Positions 3,305-21,222 of a stretch of DNA of 22,476 nt are shown in pieces. The notes beneath the pieces were generated by a model, which saw only the letters and a program-made list of their open reading frames with translations, did not search any database and was not told where the DNA came from. The translations under genes and the position numbers were made by a program. Position 1 is the first letter of the stretch; each line of letters starts with the position of its first letter. The stretch comes from a virus, in the IMG/VR virus record IMGVR_UViG_3300020416_000068, positions 1 to 22,476 of that record, one strand, 5' to 3'.

Positions 3305-4098
3305 TGGCACGTCGCCCCGTCATAAGTACCTCGGCTTTAAGTCTCACTGCGCCAAATTATCTAGTGCTCCTGCAGTCCATTCAAGACTTACAAGGCGCTG
3401 AAAGTAATTTTTATGCGGATAGAAAGAATGAACTTAATAGCTACTTAGGTCAACCTTCGAGAAGTACAAATGAAGTAGAGAGTGCCTATGACAGCCTGTT
3501 AGGAACGCAGCCTTGGGAATACACAAATATCTTTAACAGCGCAGGAAATAGTTTGGATAACACAGAGACTTCCAATGAAGAAGACGATGATGGGAATGAT
3601 GCGGATCTTATCTACGTTCAGCTACCGTCTGCGCTCAGTGCCCACGCAACCAACGCTAGCAACACTATTTTGTATAACCCAGGAATAGGCTTTAGAGAGG
3701 TGGATTTACTCTATACAAACATTAGTTTTTATACGAGTCGAGGCGAAACCTTTTCAGCCAGCGATGATGATGACAATACTTCGTTCGATTACCAAACTGG
3801 TTTTGAAGAAGTTCCTGTCGCATATCAAGACAACAATAATCTTTCAGGTCGTCTGGCTCACATGTATCGGCTGATTGGAAATCGATATGACAGTGCAGTA
3901 GCCCCTAAATACTCGAACTACATTAATCAAGTCAACGCCTACAACAATTACGTGGGAGGAGGTTCATCAACTAGTTATACCGGAGGTACGCCTGATAGAC
4001 CTTATGACGGTTATTCGCGTCCTGCTTCTGTGTTCGGTTATAACCGGCCAGACAAATTAAATATCAAGATAGTAGAAGAGACAAGAGGTTATAGCTAA
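3304..4098 (+). CDS. Unrecognised acidic, Tyr/Asn-rich tail protein between M and L
   Basis: I do not recognise this 264-residue protein. It occupies a position between the M and L homologues where lambda has no gene. It contains no cysteine. Two acidic runs stand out, NEEDDDGND at 91-99 and SDDDDN at 153-158, and both could bind Ca2+ or other divalent ions. The N-terminal third (about 15-68) looks helical. The last 70 residues are rich in Tyr, Asn, Gly and Pro (repeated NAYNNY, GGTP, PYDGYSRP patterns) and are probably extended or disordered. It has one-base overlaps at both ends (TAATG), so it is translated in step with M and L and is very likely a tail-tip component or assembly factor. No transmembrane segment or signal peptide is visible. 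Confidence 0.75.
   Translation: MARRPVISTSALSLTAPNYLVLLQSIQDLQGAESNFYADRKNELNSYLGQPSRSTNEVESAYDSLLGTQPWEYTNIFNSAGNSLDNTETSNEEDDDGNDADLIYVQLPSALSAHATNASNTILYNPGIGFREVDLLYTNISFYTSRGETFSASDDDDNTSFDYQTGFEEVPVAYQDNNNLSGRLAHMYRLIGNRYDSAVAPKYSNYINQVNAYNNYVGGGSSTSYTGGTPDRPYDGYSRPASVFGYNRPDKLNIKIVEETRGYS
4084..4088 (+). promoter_or_regulatory. Ribosome binding site AGAGG for the L-like gene
   Basis: AGAGG lies nine bases before the ATG at 4098, inside the end of the preceding gene. It supports that start and adds to the coupling provided by the one-base TAATG overlap. Confidence 0.5.
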
Positions 4099-4769
4099 TG
4101 GCATTAAAAGAAGATACTTTAATTTCTTTGTTCATTATTGATGGGCAGGCGTCAACTCCTACCGGGAGTTTTGGACGTATTAATATTGTTAGTCCAGAAC
4201 AATCTGGAGGTCAGACAGTCAAGTATGTCAATGAGCAGGGGCAGGATGTTGTTTATAATCCAGTGCCTGTAAGGTTTGGTTCTGTAGAGATATCCGGCAG
4301 TAATAAACTTCCGTCCCCAAAAGTACAATTCGCTAATGTCGACGCGGGTCTGACTGCTTTAAGTAGAGACTACGACGATCTAATCGGATTTAAGCTTATC
4401 CGACTAAGAACCTACGCTAAATTCTTGCTGGAGATTGGAGGTGTAACCGGCCCGTCTCCCGATAGAACAGCCCACTTCACACCGGACACTTGGTATTTCG
4501 AGCGAAAGGTCGAAGAGAACAAAGTGAGTGTGAGTTATGAACTAGCATCTATCTTTGATGTTGAAGGTCTAAACATACCAGGACGACGACTTTACCAAAA
4601 CTTTTGCCCATTTGCTTACAGAGGACCCGACTGTCAGTATGCAGGCCCGAATGTTCCGACCAGCGGTCAAGCAGACGGGTGTTTAAAGACTTTGAGCGCA
4701 TGTCAACAACATTTTGGCGCACAGAATCTAGATCTTCGTTACGGGGGCTTCCCCACAGTGCAGAACTAA
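4098..4769 (+). CDS. L: Minor tail protein L-like, with four-cysteine C-terminal domain
   Basis: This 223-residue protein matches the lambda gpL family (Phage_tail_L), a tail-tip hub component. Its length is close to lambda gpL, about 232. An N-terminal beta domain (1-160) includes VRFGSVEISGSNKLPSPKVQ, family-typical sequence, near 58-77. The C-terminal domain carries the only four cysteines, C170, C179, C195 and C202, spaced C-x8-C-x15-C-x6-C, followed by the conserved-looking RYGGFP ending. Lambda-type gpL proteins are known to coordinate a 4Fe-4S cluster through four C-terminal cysteines, so an Fe-S site here is a reasonable inference. The middle spacing looks shorter than I recall for lambda. 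The TAA stop is followed two bases later by the next gene's start (TAATAATG). Confidence 0.88.
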   Translation: MALKEDTLISLFIIDGQASTPTGSFGRINIVSPEQSGGQTVKYVNEQGQDVVYNPVPVRFGSVEISGSNKLPSPKVQFANVDAGLTALSRDYDDLIGFKLIRLRTYAKFLLEIGGVTGPSPDRTAHFTPDTWYFERKVEENKVSVSYELASIFDVEGLNIPGRRLYQNFCPFAYRGPDCQYAGPNVPTSGQADGCLKTLSACQQHFGAQNLDLRYGGFPTVQN

Positions 4770-4771
4770 TA

Positions 4772-5110
4772 ATGAAAAAGCTTTATCAGCAGATAGCGAG
4801 GTATGCCGTCAAAGCCTGTCCTAACGAGGTTTGCGGTGTCGTTAAGAATAGTAAGGCGATCCGCTGTGAGAATAAAGCCAACGAAACCAATCAAGCTTTT
4901 CTCATCGACGCTGAAACGTATTTGAAGTATCTGCCAGATACTATTTTCCATTCTCATCCAACGGGAATGTCAGGTTTTAGCGAACACGACTTAGCTGTAG
5001 CTGCGAATATGGAGTTGACCTCATACGTATATGTCGTCGAAGCTGACCGTCTTGAAAAGTGGACAGCAGCGAAAGGTGTTGAAGTATTTGAGAAGGTACT
5101 AGGCCAATGA
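4772..5110 (+). CDS. K: Tail tip K-like JAMM/MPN+ metallopeptidase domain protein
   Basis: The 112-residue product has a complete JAMM zinc metallopeptidase signature: E19 in NEVCGVV, then H60-S-H62-P, S70 and D73, fitting E...H-x-H-x7-S-x2-D. This is the N-terminal domain of lambda gpK, whose second domain is an NlpC/P60 cell-wall hydrolase. That second domain is absent here. I chose the ATG at 4772, two bases after the L stop, over the in-frame ATG at 4604. The upstream extension lies wholly inside L, has no domain character, and the start at 4772 places the JAMM fold at the N-terminus as in relatives. No strong Shine-Dalgarno is visible, so reinitiation from L is likely. It overlaps the next gene by four bases (ATGA). 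Confidence 0.85.
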   Translation: MKKLYQQIARYAVKACPNEVCGVVKNSKAIRCENKANETNQAFLIDAETYLKYLPDTIFHSHPTGMSGFSEHDLAVAANMELTSYVYVVEADRLEKWTAAKGVEVFEKVLGQ

Positions 5111-7680
5111 TGAAGATCACGCTTGAGGGTGTAGCGGGCAAGCGGTTTGGTCGTGAACACCAACTAAGTGTTCGTAATCCAAACGAAGCTTTACGTGCTC
5201 TTTGCCAACTCATTCCTGGTTTTAGAGAATTTCTAACGTCGGCACATGAGTTCGGAATCTTTTTTCAAGTAATCACCAACAACAATAATGAAGTTAATTA
5301 TGAGGGTCTTGGTCTAGGTTGTGAGTCCTTCTCGCTGGTTCCAGTTATTACGGGTGCGCTTAACTTCACCTTCAGGAACATTGGCTTAGTTCTTGTTGGT
5401 GCATTGTTAGTTGCCGTCTCGTTTGGTGCGTTTGGTATTACTTATGGAGCTGCAGGGACTATTTCGGCTGGATTAAAGTCGGCAGCATTTGCTCTTGGTA
5501 CTGCATTGATATTTACGGGTATCGCAGGGTTGTTCGCGCCGGGTATACCTGAGGATGGAAAGCAAGAAGGGTCAGAATCTGATGATGCGGTTTTTCGCGG
5601 CGGCTCTGGTACAGCCTCACAGGGCACACCAATACCTTTGTTATATGGAGAATTTCTTTGTCAAAATATGCCGATTATCTCTTCGTATGTAGAAGGTACG
5701 GATGGGCATATATTGAATATTGTTTCTGAGGGTGAGATCGAAGGTTTAGCTACTGGCAGCTTTGGAAAAGACATCTATCTGAATGGGCTGCAATCTGCTT
5801 CAAGTTCAACAGGTGATATAACGCTAACCACTGGCAACCAAAATAGCAAAGTAATTACAGGTATTGACTCAGCGGGGTTTCATTTGGCGGTGGGCCAGAC
5901 CCTACAATTTACTGACGACAATGCCCCAAACCCACAAATTATTCGATCGTTTAATCAACCAGATGCTGACAGGTTAGACATCCGTATTTTGCGTGGACCT
6001 AGTTATCAAATCCGAACTTCTAGTCCTAATGATGGTGGTGCTGCTTCTACAGACTACCGAGATTACGATGCTAAGGCTGACGGCTTTACGGCTACTAATT
6101 TTCTTACCTGGAATATTCGAGTCATTGATGCCAATGGCGGAATTATTAAAGATGAAACAGTTGAAGACAATGAAATTCTAAAAGCTAGAAAAGTTTATGA
6201 AGGTCTTAAAAATATTAATATTTCTGGTAGGCCGCAGCCTATTGCGATAACTCTCACTCGTCTAGACAAAGGAGCAGTACCTGATCCCAAAAATGAAAAG
6301 GGGGGAGCAAACAGGTACTCATACCAATGGGTCAAAGGTGACGTTCAACTTGTTGCTGCGGATGTTATGTGGGACGAGAAACTCGTATATCCCAGAAGCG
6401 CCTTATTGGGCATGAAATTCAATGTAGGTGAGTTTTCATCTATGCCGACAGTTCAAGGGCTATTTAAAGGTATAAAAGTCCCCACGCTTGATAGCAACCT
6501 GAGAATTAGTTATGCATTCAGCAAAAACCCGGCATACGTTCTGCTTGATCTGCTGACCAACCCACGTTATGGATGTGGTGGGCGTGTGTACACTCCGACT
6601 GGTCCCGGTAACCCTGCTCCAGTCTCACAACCTGGAATCAATATCGAAGACATCGATTTGGCCTCATTTCTTGTAGCGGCCAACTTCTGCGACGAAAAGA
6701 ATATTGAGTTCAATGGATACATAAATCGCAAATCTGACGCTTTAGATCTTATTAGATCTGTAGCCTCTACGTTTCAAGGTAGTCTGATTTATGCAGGAGG
6801 TTATACCTCAGTAATTATTGATAGGAAGCTTGAGTTGGCTGACGAGGCCCAATTCAGACTTTATTCAGAAGCTAACACCATTCAAGAAACAGATGATGGC
6901 GGTGAAGTCATCGAGCCCTGTTTTACTTATGAGGGTACAGCTAAAAAATCCAGAACAACTGCGGTAGAGGTCAGTTATGTAGAACCTAGTGAGTTCTACA
7001 TTGAACGCAAAGAAAGTATTGAAGACCGCATTGCTATTGATCGCTTTGGATACAACCAAAAGACGATCAGGGCACTTGGATGTACCAGTCGAAGACAGGC
7101 TCGTCGTTTAGGTCGATATATCTTAGGTAGCAATCAACTTAATACTGAGACAGTTACCTTCAAAGTATCTACCGAAGGCGCGATGCTTCTTCCTGGTGAT
7201 ATTTGTCTTATTGCAGATCCCTTAAAAACAAGGATGTCTGGGGGAGGTCGAGTTGTGTCTGCGTCACAGAACCAGCTTGTTACAGACAGAGTTTTAACCA
7301 ATCTTCCGTCGTCAAATCTTTTTGTTTACACCTACGGCAGTACAGGCATCGCTCAAAAACATGAGGTGAGCAGTGTTTCGGGTTCAACAATAACAATCAA
7401 CGGCACATTCAATCAAATTCCAACCACTATGCAAATGTGGATTTTGGCGACGAATAATGATAGAGATACTTTTCGTCGTTACAGAGTACAATCAGTAAAA
7501 GAGGAAGGTGATGGCACATACGTGATTATCGCTATTTTATATGTCGATCGTAAGTTTGACTATGTAGAAACCGAAGATGATATTAATTACGGAAAGACTA
7601 ACAGGACATACTATAAAAATCGTAACCCAGCACTTAATCCAAAATCTGTTGGCTTCAGTATCCGTAATATCGAAACGTAA
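5107..7680 (+). CDS. J: Fused tail assembly I / tip attachment J-like protein
   Basis: The 857-residue protein combines two lambda tail genes. Residues 1-148 resemble gpI (Lambda_tail_I): EALRALCQLIPGFREFL at 27-43, LVPVITGAL at 77-85, and hydrophobic stretches at about 92-111 and 127-146. A linker follows, with the usual F.GG..T.SQGTPIPLLYGE segment at about 163-182. From about 200 on it resembles gpJ, the central tip protein that contacts the receptor. Evidence is ILNIVSEGEIEGLATG at 202-217, YPRSALLGMKF at 428-438, LLDLLTNPRYGCGGRVY at 479-495, an NAYL-like NGYINRKSDALDLI segment at 536-549, and RRQARRLGRYIL...LPGDICLIADP at 662-705. Lambda gpJ alone is 1132 residues, so the J part (about 650) is short and lacks obvious FN3 repeats and the receptor-binding C-terminus. 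The start at 5107 overlaps K by four bases; a second ATG follows immediately. Confidence 0.88.
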   Translation: MMKITLEGVAGKRFGREHQLSVRNPNEALRALCQLIPGFREFLTSAHEFGIFFQVITNNNNEVNYEGLGLGCESFSLVPVITGALNFTFRNIGLVLVGALLVAVSFGAFGITYGAAGTISAGLKSAAFALGTALIFTGIAGLFAPGIPEDGKQEGSESDDAVFRGGSGTASQGTPIPLLYGEFLCQNMPIISSYVEGTDGHILNIVSEGEIEGLATGSFGKDIYLNGLQSASSSTGDITLTTGNQNSKVITGIDSAGFHLAVGQTLQFTDDNAPNPQIIRSFNQPDADRLDIRILRGPSYQIRTSSPNDGGAASTDYRDYDAKADGFTATNFLTWNIRVIDANGGIIKDETVEDNEILKARKVYEGLKNINISGRPQPIAITLTRLDKGAVPDPKNEKGGANRYSYQWVKGDVQLVAADVMWDEKLVYPRSALLGMKFNVGEFSSMPTVQGLFKGIKVPTLDSNLRISYAFSKNPAYVLLDLLTNPRYGCGGRVYTPTGPGNPAPVSQPGINIEDIDLASFLVAANFCDEKNIEFNGYINRKSDALDLIRSVASTFQGSLIYAGGYTSVIIDRKLELADEAQFRLYSEANTIQETDDGGEVIEPCFTYEGTAKKSRTTAVEVSYVEPSEFYIERKESIEDRIAIDRFGYNQKTIRALGCTSRRQARRLGRYILGSNQLNTETVTFKVSTEGAMLLPGDICLIADPLKTRMSGGGRVVSASQNQLVTDRVLTNLPSSNLFVYTYGSTGIAQKHEVSSVSGSTITINGTFNQIPTTMQMWILATNNDRDTFRRYRVQSVKEEGDGTYVIIAILYVDRKFDYVETEDDINYGKTNRTYYKNRNPALNPKSVGFSIRNIET

Positions 7681-16770: not shown

Positions 16771-19700
16771 ATGAGTAAGCTGCATCGCGACAACGCAGGC
16801 TACGTCGGATGTAGCGCGGAGGAAACTCAGGATCCTTACTACAGCTACAACAAGCTGGCGTTGCCTCTAAGTGGGGACGTAAATTCTGTCCAAAGAGAGG
16901 AGGTGACATTTACAGTCACCGTTGTTAGTACTGGCAGTGGTAATAAATATGTGATTGACGGCGTTCAACAAGCCACAGTCAATCTGCTGCAGGGAAATGT
17001 TTATACCTTTGATCAGAGTCACAATTCAAATAGCGGCCATCCGCTCAGATTGAGCTATACGGCGAATGGCACACACGCTGGAGGGATTGAGTACACACTC
17101 GGCGTAACAAAGCACGGCACGCCTGGAACGAGTGGAGCCTATACCAGGATTGTTGTACCCTTTGGTCTGCACGATCTGAATTACTACTGCTTCTACCACT
17201 CTGGAATGGGTGGTGCAGCGAATGTAAGCAGTAACCCGAACATGACCACGTTTGGGCTACCGATCCTAAAAACAACAGGTGCGGCTGGTCAGACTGCAAA
17301 TAGTAACCCGTCCTCTAGTGGTTTAGAGTTCGGATATGACAATGCAGATAATTCCTTTGACAGTAGCTCCACAACTCTTACTAAAGACACTACGGGCTAT
17401 ACGTTCAATACTTGGGGTGGATCTCAATTAGCATCTGCCCTTGGTGGTAATGGAACTAACAGTGTTCAAGTCATAAAAGCGACTGATGGCAAGGTTAAGG
17501 CGTGGTTTGTCTCAACTGACAATACAGATCGATATTTTTGGACTTCCGATAATGGAATCCACTGGAGAAGTAAAGGTTCTTATTACGACACAGATGGAAG
17601 CACACAAGTAATTGTATCGAGATACCTTGGTTGGGCAGCAGGCTCTAACTCAAGCACAATCACTGTAACGGCTGAAGATCCACAAGTCGCTGCTGATCCT
17701 TATGCGCCGAATTTAGTGCTAGCTGTGCCGATGAACGGCAGCAATGGCGCCAGATCATTTGCAGATTACAGCTCAGCAATTAAGGGCAGTGGCATTGCAA
17801 ACGCAATCACTATTGAAGGCGACACTCAAATTGCGACTTCGCAGAGTCAATTCTACGGAAGTAGTGCTTACTTGGATGGGTCATCAGATGAGGGTTTGAC
17901 AATAGCAAATAATCCTGATCTTGACTTGGGTACAGGTGACTTTACTGTTGAATTCTGGACTTATTTGACAACCATCGAATCCACCGCTTTTGTTGGGAAG
18001 TTTGTGAGTGGAAATTATGGTTGGATTATTCAGTTGGTAAATGCTACAACTTTTAGATTCTACTCGGGAAATAATGGCAGTTTAGGAAGCCCTTATGATT
18101 TCACAGGTGGAACTGTCTTAGCAAATAAATGGCATCATGTCGCTCTTACAAGACATGAAGGCGTAGTAACGATGTATCTCGATGGAAATTCCATCGGAGC
18201 AGCATCTAATAGGCATGATTTAACAGCATCAACAGCATTGGTAGTTGGTACAAATGCTGACAGCACAGATCAAACTGTGAATGGATTTATGTCAGACCTA
18301 CGTATTTACAAAGGCGTAGCTAAATACAGAACACCGTTTCCAATTGGAGAATTTGGGCACAAGGCCGTTACCTATATCGGAAACAGCGGTGTCAAAAAGA
18401 TTGGTCCCAAGTCCGTAAGCGTTGGAGTAACCGCAACTGGGACAGGCGCTGTGTCAGGAATCAGCAGCACCTATCCACTCTCAGGATTGTTTGACGGAAA
18501 CAGTTCAACTTATTTGGCATCAAGTGCCAGCAATATTAGTTCCAGCCCTGCTATTTTGACAGTTTTATTTCCTGCTGGGAATCAACCTTCTTATAGCTCA
18601 AGCGTTGTTGTTGAGGTTTGGTCCGGTTCCATAGATACAGTTCAAGTCTCTATTAATGGAGGGTCTTATCAAAGCGTTGCTCAAAATAATTGGACGCAAC
18701 ACACTATTGCTACTGGCTCAGGCACGATTACTGAAATAAAAGTCTCTCGCCAGAAAAGTAATACAAACGCAGGTGCAGCAGAAATTAGACGGATAATTGT
18801 TGATGGGGTTGAGCTGCTGGATGGCGACGGGTCAAATATTCTTTTCAGCCCAGGTCTAGTTTGGATAAAAGAAATAGATAGTACTGGGGACCACCATTTA
18901 TTTGACACGGTACGCGGCGCTACAAAGGCTTTACGTTCTAACGAACCAGATGGAGAAGTTACCGATACAAATGAGTTAACCGCTTTTAATTCTGATGGTT
19001 TCAGCTTAGGTAACGGGGGTGATGTCAATGCCAATACAACAAATACAGTTGCCTGGATGTGGGACGTTGGAACAGTTACTAATCCCGTTGGTGATATTTG
19101 GACGCCAGGAGCAACGAAATACATAGGTATTAAGTTTGCTACTGCTAGTGGCGGTACTGTTGTTTATGGTCAAACATCCGGTAGTGATACTGTTGAGGTA
19201 TGGACCTCTTCTGATAACTCCAATTGGACACAGCAAGGTTCTTCACAGACTATTACTACTCAACGGAGCCTGACTACTAGCGACCAATACGTCTACATTA
19301 GAAACACTTCAAACGCTTTATTTAGCAATTGGTACGCTGCTGCTAGCAATGGAGCCGATGGCCATTATTCAAGTGTTACTTACCCAAGCGGTGCTAGCTG
19401 GACCGGTCCAGGTTACACGGATCATGACTTTAGAGATGGTGGCGGTGCAGTAATTGCTGCTGGCAGTCTGAATAGCTCTGTTTACAATCAAAGCCATGCA
19501 ATAACTTCAAACATTACAGGCAACTTGCCTGCTACTGGTAACCCATTGGCCAACTGGTTTAATGGTCAAAGAGCAAATAAATTGGAACCTTCTGGTAGTG
19601 GCTCTTTAGATTTCTCCAGCGTATCCGCACTTCAAAACTTTAGTGGAACGCTTCAGTTCGCTGTATCGGCTTACAGCGGATCTACCAGTATGAAGTTTGT

Positions 19701-21222
19701 AATTAACGCATCTACTGACAACCTTACGTTTACTACGGAGGCACTACCTAGTTCTTCTGGGGGATTCCCAAGCCAGTTGTTGACTATTCCTGTTACCAGC
19801 CTGAGTACGCTTGATTTTACTTCTATAAGCGGTCAATCTACCCAGTTTTGGGGTATGTATTTGGACGGAAAATTGCTTGTGGATTCGACGGCTACTCCTA
19901 CTAACATCCCATCAGTTGCGTCAAGTGTTAGGGCATCGACGGAAAATGGTTTTTCGATTGTAAGGTTTACTACGACTGCAAACGGTCAACAGATCTCACA
20001 CGGGTTAAATAGCACCCCTAAATGGATTATTGGCAAGTACTTAGATGGTTCCAGTAACTGGCGCGTTTACCACTCTAGTGTTGGTGCTTCTAAGACATTA
20101 TATTTAAACTCTACGTCTGGTGAAAGCTCGGACAATGACCGAATAACTGCTGTTGACTCGTCAACTTTTACTTTAGGTGGCGCAGGTCTTGGAACTCTTG
20201 GCGACTCAATTGCTTATTGTTGGTCTGAAACCGCATACAGCAAGTTCGGTTCGTACACATCAAGTTCAAACGCTGCCCAGACTATTACGACTGGATTTAA
20301 GCCCGCGTTTGTACTGATTAAAGGTACGGGCTCAGGCGGGTTTGAATGGGTTATATATGATTCAGTACGTGGTGGTGCAAATCATTTAACTGCCAACAAC
20401 TCCAACGTTGAGAATAGTCCCAGCGGAATAGGTGACATTACATTTGAAGAAAATGGTTTTTCAATTCCGGCTTCTGGCGACAACGGAAATATCCGTGGTG
20501 GTGGCACTTACGTCTACATGGCATTCGCTGAATCCAGTGCAAACGATGATGCTTATAAAGCTGTAGGTAGTAGCGAAGTTGCTCTTAACGATCTATCTAG
20601 TAGCGCCCATGCCATCACCAACAACGGCGCTACGTTCCAGAGCACTGTCAGTAAGTTCTACGACGGTGCTACTGAGTTTAATGGGTCGTCTAGTAATCTC
20701 ACAATTCCCGCCTCAAGTGATTTTGACTTTGGCACTGGCGACTTCACTATTGAGATGTGGGCCTATTTAAAAGCAGCGACTAGCAATATGACACTAATAT
20801 CTTCTGGCAACTATTACACCGTAGGGTCTAATGGAAACTGGTTGTTAAGACGTACAAACGGTTCTCAAATTACATTTGCGTCTTGGGACGGTCAAGGCAG
20901 CTCTGAAAATGGCGGACTAAGCGCAGTCACCAATCTCTATGCTTGGAATCATTTTGCTCTAACTAGGCGAGCAAATACTGTGCAGGTTTTTGTAAATGGT
21001 TCGCCAGGTGGAACTATGACCGTCACAAAAAGCCTTTCAGACGGCGGCACAAACGGGCTGAGGATTGGTCATGGGAATACCAATGCCCACTGGAATGGAT
21101 ACATTCAAGATGTGCGCGTCTATAAAGGCATCGCTAAATACACATCTTCGTTCTCACCGCCTGAGCGAAGTGTCCAGGGTACAGCCAGAAGATACCCCTC
21201 TGGCATTTATGTGGTGAGCTAA
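16771..21222 (+). CDS. Large mosaic adhesin with cupredoxin-like and two LamG-like domains
   Basis: This 1483-residue protein is probably a receptor-binding fibre or side adhesin. Residues 1-35 form a likely attachment peptide (GYVGCSAEE). About 45-155 is a cupredoxin-like domain with NKYVIDG, YTFDQS..SNSGHPLRLSY and YYCFYHSGMGG. H90, C140, H143 and M146 form the canonical type-1 copper ligand set, C-x2-H-x2-M. A LamG-like domain spans about 310-525 (LDLGTGDFTVEFWTYL, WHHVALTRHEG, SDLRIYKGVAKY). A discoidin-like stretch lies at 565-687. Three related repeats sit at about 691-768, 1058-1157 and 1163-1259, with further beta modules at 774-1040. A second LamG-like domain lies at about 1259-1467 (FDFGTGDFTIEMWAYL, IQDVRVYKGIAKY). 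No signal peptide or transmembrane helix is evident. Domain limits are approximate and the host target is unknown. Confidence 0.85.
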   Translation: MSKLHRDNAGYVGCSAEETQDPYYSYNKLALPLSGDVNSVQREEVTFTVTVVSTGSGNKYVIDGVQQATVNLLQGNVYTFDQSHNSNSGHPLRLSYTANGTHAGGIEYTLGVTKHGTPGTSGAYTRIVVPFGLHDLNYYCFYHSGMGGAANVSSNPNMTTFGLPILKTTGAAGQTANSNPSSSGLEFGYDNADNSFDSSSTTLTKDTTGYTFNTWGGSQLASALGGNGTNSVQVIKATDGKVKAWFVSTDNTDRYFWTSDNGIHWRSKGSYYDTDGSTQVIVSRYLGWAAGSNSSTITVTAEDPQVAADPYAPNLVLAVPMNGSNGARSFADYSSAIKGSGIANAITIEGDTQIATSQSQFYGSSAYLDGSSDEGLTIANNPDLDLGTGDFTVEFWTYLTTIESTAFVGKFVSGNYGWIIQLVNATTFRFYSGNNGSLGSPYDFTGGTVLANKWHHVALTRHEGVVTMYLDGNSIGAASNRHDLTASTALVVGTNADSTDQTVNGFMSDLRIYKGVAKYRTPFPIGEFGHKAVTYIGNSGVKKIGPKSVSVGVTATGTGAVSGISSTYPLSGLFDGNSSTYLASSASNISSSPAILTVLFPAGNQPSYSSSVVVEVWSGSIDTVQVSINGGSYQSVAQNNWTQHTIATGSGTITEIKVSRQKSNTNAGAAEIRRIIVDGVELLDGDGSNILFSPGLVWIKEIDSTGDHHLFDTVRGATKALRSNEPDGEVTDTNELTAFNSDGFSLGNGGDVNANTTNTVAWMWDVGTVTNPVGDIWTPGATKYIGIKFATASGGTVVYGQTSGSDTVEVWTSSDNSNWTQQGSSQTITTQRSLTTSDQYVYIRNTSNALFSNWYAAASNGADGHYSSVTYPSGASWTGPGYTDHDFRDGGGAVIAAGSLNSSVYNQSHAITSNITGNLPATGNPLANWFNGQRANKLEPSGSGSLDFSSVSALQNFSGTLQFAVSAYSGSTSMKFVINASTDNLTFTTEALPSSSGGFPSQLLTIPVTSLSTLDFTSISGQSTQFWGMYLDGKLLVDSTATPTNIPSVASSVRASTENGFSIVRFTTTANGQQISHGLNSTPKWIIGKYLDGSSNWRVYHSSVGASKTLYLNSTSGESSDNDRITAVDSSTFTLGGAGLGTLGDSIAYCWSETAYSKFGSYTSSSNAAQTITTGFKPAFVLIKGTGSGGFEWVIYDSVRGGANHLTANNSNVENSPSGIGDITFEENGFSIPASGDNGNIRGGGTYVYMAFAESSANDDAYKAVGSSEVALNDLSSSAHAITNNGATFQSTVSKFYDGATEFNGSSSNLTIPASSDFDFGTGDFTIEMWAYLKAATSNMTLISSGNYYTVGSNGNWLLRRTNGSQITFASWDGQGSSENGGLSAVTNLYAWNHFALTRRANTVQVFVNGSPGGTMTVTKSLSDGGTNGLRIGHGNTNAHWNGYIQDVRVYKGIAKYTSSFSPPERSVQGTARRYPSGIYVVS
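21104..21119 (+). repeat. 16-base direct repeat in LamG 3' coding region, copy 1
   Basis: TTCAAGATGTGCGCGT encodes the QDVRV core of the final LamG strand. It is identical to 22333-22348 in the next gene, while flanking bases diverge at codon wobble positions. Confidence 0.8.

Follow-up and report, generated by a model that had tools for sequence, protein, structure and literature searches.

The tail fibre protein encoded in an IMG/VR virus record of 22,476 bases (the window, which is the whole stretch of DNA analyzed here) contains at residues 45-155 a predicted cupredoxin-like sandwich. We consider it reasonably probable that this domain harbors a type-1-like copper site and belongs to a structural or adhesive module that was shuffled among marine phage proteins. 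Copper binding by the domain can reasonably be inferred because its fold appears cupredoxin-like, its ligand set is complete, and the ligands are strongly conserved; from these sequence and model data we also infer the identity of the metal, its occupancy, and the structural role of the site. Several considerations argue against the copper reading. Profile matches of the window domain to known copper families are absent or weak, phage proteins are made in a reducing and copper-poor cytoplasm with no export step, and the first His is followed by Pro, not by Asn or Ser, in 123 of the 130 viral copies with an intact ligand set, the window copy included.

The fibre gene and the predicted fold of the domain

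The window holds a lambda-type tail module with a tape measure protein, Phage_min_tail, minor tail protein L, a JAB-domain protein, and a J-type protein with an I-like start. Among named relatives, Synechococcus phage S-CBS4 ranked first for the J-type protein, for two structural/fibre proteins, and for the C-terminal part of the tape measure, and a cyanobacterial host is therefore likely, as judged from these protein similarities. We regard the fibre as being of the cyanosiphovirus type. Minor tail protein L (positions 4098-4769; PF05100, E = 3.8e-34) carries four Cys residues in its C-terminal region. Since the lambda minor tail protein L family binds an iron-sulphur cluster, the tail of the window phage may hold a second metal. 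In addition, one open reading frame at positions 5107-7680 joins the I-like start (a weak Lambda_tail_I match) to the J-type tail protein, two features that are separate in the matched phage records, which makes it an apparent gene fusion in the window.

The layout of the fibre gene is given in Table 1. Its N-terminal segment probably serves virion attachment. Translation placed H90, C140, H143, and M146 exactly where the original prediction had put them, the last three in a C-x2-H-x2-M loop that occurs only once in the six-frame translation of the whole window. C140 is the only Cys of the domain and one of only three in the 1483-residue fibre (positions 14, 140, and 1150). The four-ligand motif is not a chance pattern, since all four ligand positions rank within the top seven columns for conservation in the alignment of 141 viral homologues.

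Table 1. Features of the tail fibre/adhesin gene in the window.
Feature	Coordinates	Strand	Basis or remarks
Tail fibre/adhesin gene	16771..21222	+	1483 aa; N-terminal segment, cupredoxin-like domain, two LamG (concanavalin A-like) domains, DUF7483
N-terminal segment, residues 1-44 (MSKLHRDNAGYVGCSAEETQDPYYSYNKLALPL...)	16771..16902	+	Conserved start of orthologous fibres, directly followed by the cupredoxin-like domain
Cupredoxin-like domain, residues 45-155 of the 1483-aa reading frame	16903..17235	+	Stop-free; translation, AlphaFold2 model, Foldseek, viral alignment
His90 codon, first ligand, in SNSGHPL	17038..17040	+	Translation and conservation
Cys140 codon, ligand, in YYCFYHSGM	17188..17190	+	Translation, conservation, and motif scan
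His143 codon, ligand, in YYCFYHSGM	17197..17199	+	Translation and conservation
Met146 codon, axial ligand, in YYCFYHSGM	17206..17208	+	Translation and conservation; sole Met of the domain
LamG-like domain, residues 373-515	17887..18315	+	PF13385
DUF7483, residues 1047-1255	19909..20535	+	PF24299
Second LamG-like region, residues ~1280-1473	20608..21189	+	Profile/family matches

An AlphaFold2 model of the domain built with 38 homologues was a beta-sandwich with a mean pLDDT of 93.9, a pTM of 0.87, and every residue at 70 or above. In domain numbering, in which H46, C96, H99, and M102 stand for ligands H90, C140, H143, and M146, the model places H46 in the loop preceding strand 48-51, C96 at the end of strand 92-96, and H99 and M102 in the loop ahead of strand 104-109. 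This predicted placement of the ligands along the strands is in the cupredoxin order. In a Foldseek comparison against the PDB, ranks 1-12 were all cupredoxins, including copper nitrite reductase, rusticyanin, AcoP, and a pseudoazurin with an engineered amicyanin loop (probability 1.00, query TM-score 0.50-0.62, best E = 3.9e-4), followed by multicopper oxidases among a few other beta-sandwich proteins. Since the TM-scores are moderate, the match to cupredoxins is at the level of fold only. The cupredoxin-like fold originally proposed for residues 45-155 is thus borne out by a confident beta-sandwich model and by PDB matches that cupredoxins lead. A ligand-free homologue, modeled from an alignment of only five sequences, showed the same strand order as the ligand-bearing domain (pLDDT 82.7), which suggests that the sandwich can stand without metal. 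The nearest PDB matches of this ligand-free model were Ig domains and not cupredoxins, weak evidence given so shallow an alignment.

Conservation and loss of the ligands

All four ligands were kept in 130 of the 141 non-redundant viral copies of the domain that made up the conservation set, a share that is inflated because several scan patterns overlapped ligand residues and ligand-bearing copies were consequently over-sampled. In this set, column conservation was 96% for H46 and 94% each for C96, H99, and M102 (domain numbering). Exactly one ligand was missing in two copies, with Met replaced by Glu in one and the first His by Tyr in the other, and three or four ligands were missing in nine. 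In most cases the ligands appear to have disappeared together, which is what one would expect of a metal site. Free variation of Cys, His, and Met on a retained fold, which the original prediction had named as its refutation, was not seen; the ligands were either all kept or mostly lost together. The window domain bears out the original claim of a full set of type-1 ligands, in canonical order and spaced as in amicyanin, and the ligands are strongly conserved in its relatives.

Three fibres with an orthologous N-terminal segment retain the full set of ligands. When the domain of the window was compared to that of orthologue L450, the non-synonymous difference was 0.157 and the synonymous difference 0.681, a pN/pS ratio well below 1. 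Cyanophage fibre gene records of PHROG 693 (L156, L157, L166, L202, L203, L453-L456, L458, and L459) have lost Cys, the second His, and Met together, with the domain still recognizable, and one of the further records without these three residues retained the first His. The gene neighbourhood of S-H38 (L158) resembles that of the PHROG 693 loci, yet its ligand set is intact. The best domain tree, built without the ligand columns, had five changes of ligand state; only 7 of its 70 inner branches were well supported, and at this low branch support the tree is compatible with a single origin. As far as sequences can tell, the ligand-free clade shows that one fibre gene at least can do without the putative metal.

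The same patterns bear on the alternative that the domain is a metal-free adhesion module of cupredoxin fold in a copper-free virion, its ligand set being kept for packing and hydrogen bonds or as the relict of a cellular copper protein. We consider this unlikely but deserving of serious attention, given that fibres are assembled in the cytoplasm, that the domain shares its fibre with LamG domains, and that ligand-free homologues keep both the predicted strand order and clear profile homology. A metal-free module does not, however, sit well with ligand columns conserved above almost all others, nor with the loss of ligands as a set and not singly. Packing would hardly account for the retention of a single unpaired Cys and a single Met among sequences of 30-60% identity. 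Furthermore, the spacing from His to Met is 2 in 109 of the intact copies and 3 in the other 21, and the copies with the extra residue still keep Met. It is very improbable, in turn, that the site binds zinc, iron, or cobalt; type-1 sites accept other metals under laboratory conditions, but the conserved Met and the thiolate-imidazole set prefer copper, Met as fourth ligand favours copper over zinc, and there is no second carboxylate or Cys ligand.

Relatives among copper proteins and metal-binding fibres

At sequence level, links to known copper families were faint. The window domain reached no family in Pfam or NCBIfam, and the curated cut-offs of amicyanin (TIGR02657), plastocyanin (TIGR02656), and PF00127 were not attained; of the relatives in profile A1, the best had an E-value of 0.02. 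A divergent copy from P-SSM2 matched Pfam Cupredoxin_1 (2.6e-4), PF00127 (4.5e-4), and the NCBIfam rusticyanin family (2e-4), all below curated cut-offs, its score for PF00127 being 21.0 against a cut-off of 21.2. A sequence search of the PDB with the window domain gave no match, and profile A1 gave only weak matches there, with pseudoazurin first (E = 0.095), antibodies mixed in, and plastocyanin profiles among the weak hits. Against a small panel of cellular blue-copper proteins, profile-profile comparison brought the C-H-M loop into register, with a score that was not significant.

The domain resembles amicyanin, pseudoazurin, plastocyanin, and rusticyanin in its predicted eight-to-nine-stranded beta-sandwich and in the position of His before an inner strand. 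It shares with single-domain cupredoxins the grouping of Cys, His, and Met around the last inter-strand loop and with amicyanin an identical C-x2-H-x2-M spacing. Unlike the single-domain cupredoxins, however, it is part of a phage fibre whose N terminus showed no export signal, and it has no known redox partner. The residue that follows the first His also differs, being Pro in the phage module and Asn or Ser in the classical single-domain proteins; it is Asn54 in amicyanin and Ser86 in rusticyanin, positions that tune the redox potential (PMC12723479). This Pro precludes the backbone hydrogen bond that the Cys sulphur usually accepts at that position. Pro also follows the first ligand His in the type-1 site of multicopper oxidases, which have the motif HPxHLHGH and, as noted above, were among the Foldseek matches. 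In contrast to these enzymes, the phage module has HPLRLS and lacks the His cluster of type-2/3 copper, consists of a single domain, and has a Cys-His spacing of 2 instead of 4. Membership in the multicopper oxidases was ruled out by the single domain and by HPLRLS in place of HPxHLHGH.

The original prediction had also pointed to the plastocyanin of cyanobacterial hosts, a resemblance that our results weaken. Mimicry of plastocyanin, or descent from a host plastocyanin within a cyanophage, would be in line with the Synechococcus phage S-CBS4 as best named relative of the window phage, with the plastocyanin profiles among the weak hits, and with the presence of petE in some cyanophages (PMC3037559). 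We nevertheless find either scarcely credible, because Pelagibacter and Methylophilales phages carry the module too. Moreover, no plastocyanin or amicyanin cut-off was reached, the spacing is of amicyanin type, the module has His-Pro where plastocyanin has His-Asn, and the nearest cellular cousins found were predicted secreted proteins of Verrucomicrobia with the pattern GHPF...C..H..M.

Metal sites of another kind are established in fibres, where iron-binding HxH motifs have been described in the tail fibres of T4 (gp37) and of alterophage R22Y (PMC11705849). The site predicted here likewise belongs to a fibre, would plausibly be stabilizing, and occurs in marine phages. It differs in being confined to one sandwich domain with one soft-metal site, whereas the iron fibres have a trimeric, octahedral site of HxH repeats at the fibre tip. 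Homologues of the domain are contained in PHROG 30742, 27200, 693, and 677 (tail fibre, baseplate wedge tail fibre connector), which are whole-protein families with no stated metal site; most of the PHROG 693 cyanophage members examined have lost the ligands. In the collection of open-access papers searched, which lacks most subscription journals, we found no description of such a domain in phage virion proteins, and a cupredoxin module with copper-site residues in these proteins is, provisionally, previously undescribed.

Distribution and possible role of the module

A tblastn search with the window domain matched 49 phage records from cyanophages, Pelagibacter phages, and Methylophilales phages, and contig scans recovered many more copies, with one query giving as many as 426 confirmed stretches. 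Carriers include T4-like cyanophages, Pelagibacter and Methylophilales phages, siphoviruses, and podoviruses (P-GSP1, for example), and tandem copies were present in 39 of 324 open reading frames. The related P-SSM2 domain matched 347 phage records, most of those listed being annotated as gp9 or baseplate wedge tail fibre connector, where gp9 is the annotators' name for the cyanophage protein and does not imply homology to T4 gp9. In the two copies read (L460:1301-1603 and L461:265-579), gp9 of S-ShM2 and of Syn33 has a related domain at its end, and the four ligands are all present. By its distribution in sequence records, the domain appears to be widespread as a module in the virion proteins of marine phages, not peculiar to one fibre. 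The original prediction, which spoke of one phage adhesin, was too narrow in scope.

No copy was present in the plasmid sequences searched. Verrucomicrobia genomes encode cellular proteins with a GHPF...C..H..M domain (L191, L192, L194, L195, L196, and L200), some with a signal-peptide-like start and one with a PEP-CTERM-like end, and some of these cousins are apparently secreted. Another Verrucomicrobia copy (L193) has Asn in place of the first His. Contig NHDJ01000130.1 (13,398 bases), binned in a Verrucomicrobia MAG, has the same size and match as IMGVR_UViG_2811995095_000003 and is a virus contig inside that MAG. Given the sub-cut-off cupredoxin matches of the P-SSM2 copy and the Verrucomicrobia cousins, the module is a branch of the cupredoxin superfamily common to phages and cells and not a plastocyanin.

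The position of the module within virion proteins also bears on whether its role could be directed at the host, with copper being shown to an uptake or redox protein on the host surface, or redox sensing triggering attachment. Iron-binding tail fibres and the receptor-hijack (Trojan Horse) hypothesis for their iron (PMC11705849) offer a precedent, the phage tail already holds another member of a metal-binding family (minor tail protein L), and the module occurs in fibres and baseplate connectors of phages whose hosts live in the oligotrophic ocean. Such a role is nonetheless improbable. No receptor is known, the module lies here near the N terminus, away from the expected receptor-binding tip, it is also found in baseplate connector proteins, and the hosts are too diverse for a single receptor.

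Under the preferred reading of a structural or adhesive copper module, one copper ion would most likely be bound by His90, Cys140, His143, and Met146, having been acquired at assembly or after lysis. The ion would fasten the last inter-strand loop to the loop that leads into strand 48-51. Thus held, the domain would serve, shortly after the segment that probably attaches the fibre to the virion, as an Ig-like spacer or adhesion module that is both rigid and stable. A role as electron carrier is unlikely for lack of a known partner. The same module would have been shuffled among many fibre and baseplate proteins of marine phages, and wherever the copper role was dropped, the ligands would go together and the sandwich would stay.

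To our knowledge, the known metals of phage tails are iron in T4-type fibre tips and, in minor tail protein L of the lambda type, an iron-sulphur cluster. It is quite possible, though somewhat short of probable, that marine phage virions regularly contain copper, held for stabilization or host attachment by a type-1-like module with a His-Pro second sphere in the fibres and gp9-annotated connectors of hundreds of sequenced cyanophages. A conserved copper site would give a testable handle on the fibre module, with the cyanophage clade that lacks the ligands as its natural control. If the proposal is true, copper joins the biochemistry of the virion through the attachment apparatus of abundant marine phages, and phage particles may represent a copper-binding pool in sea water.
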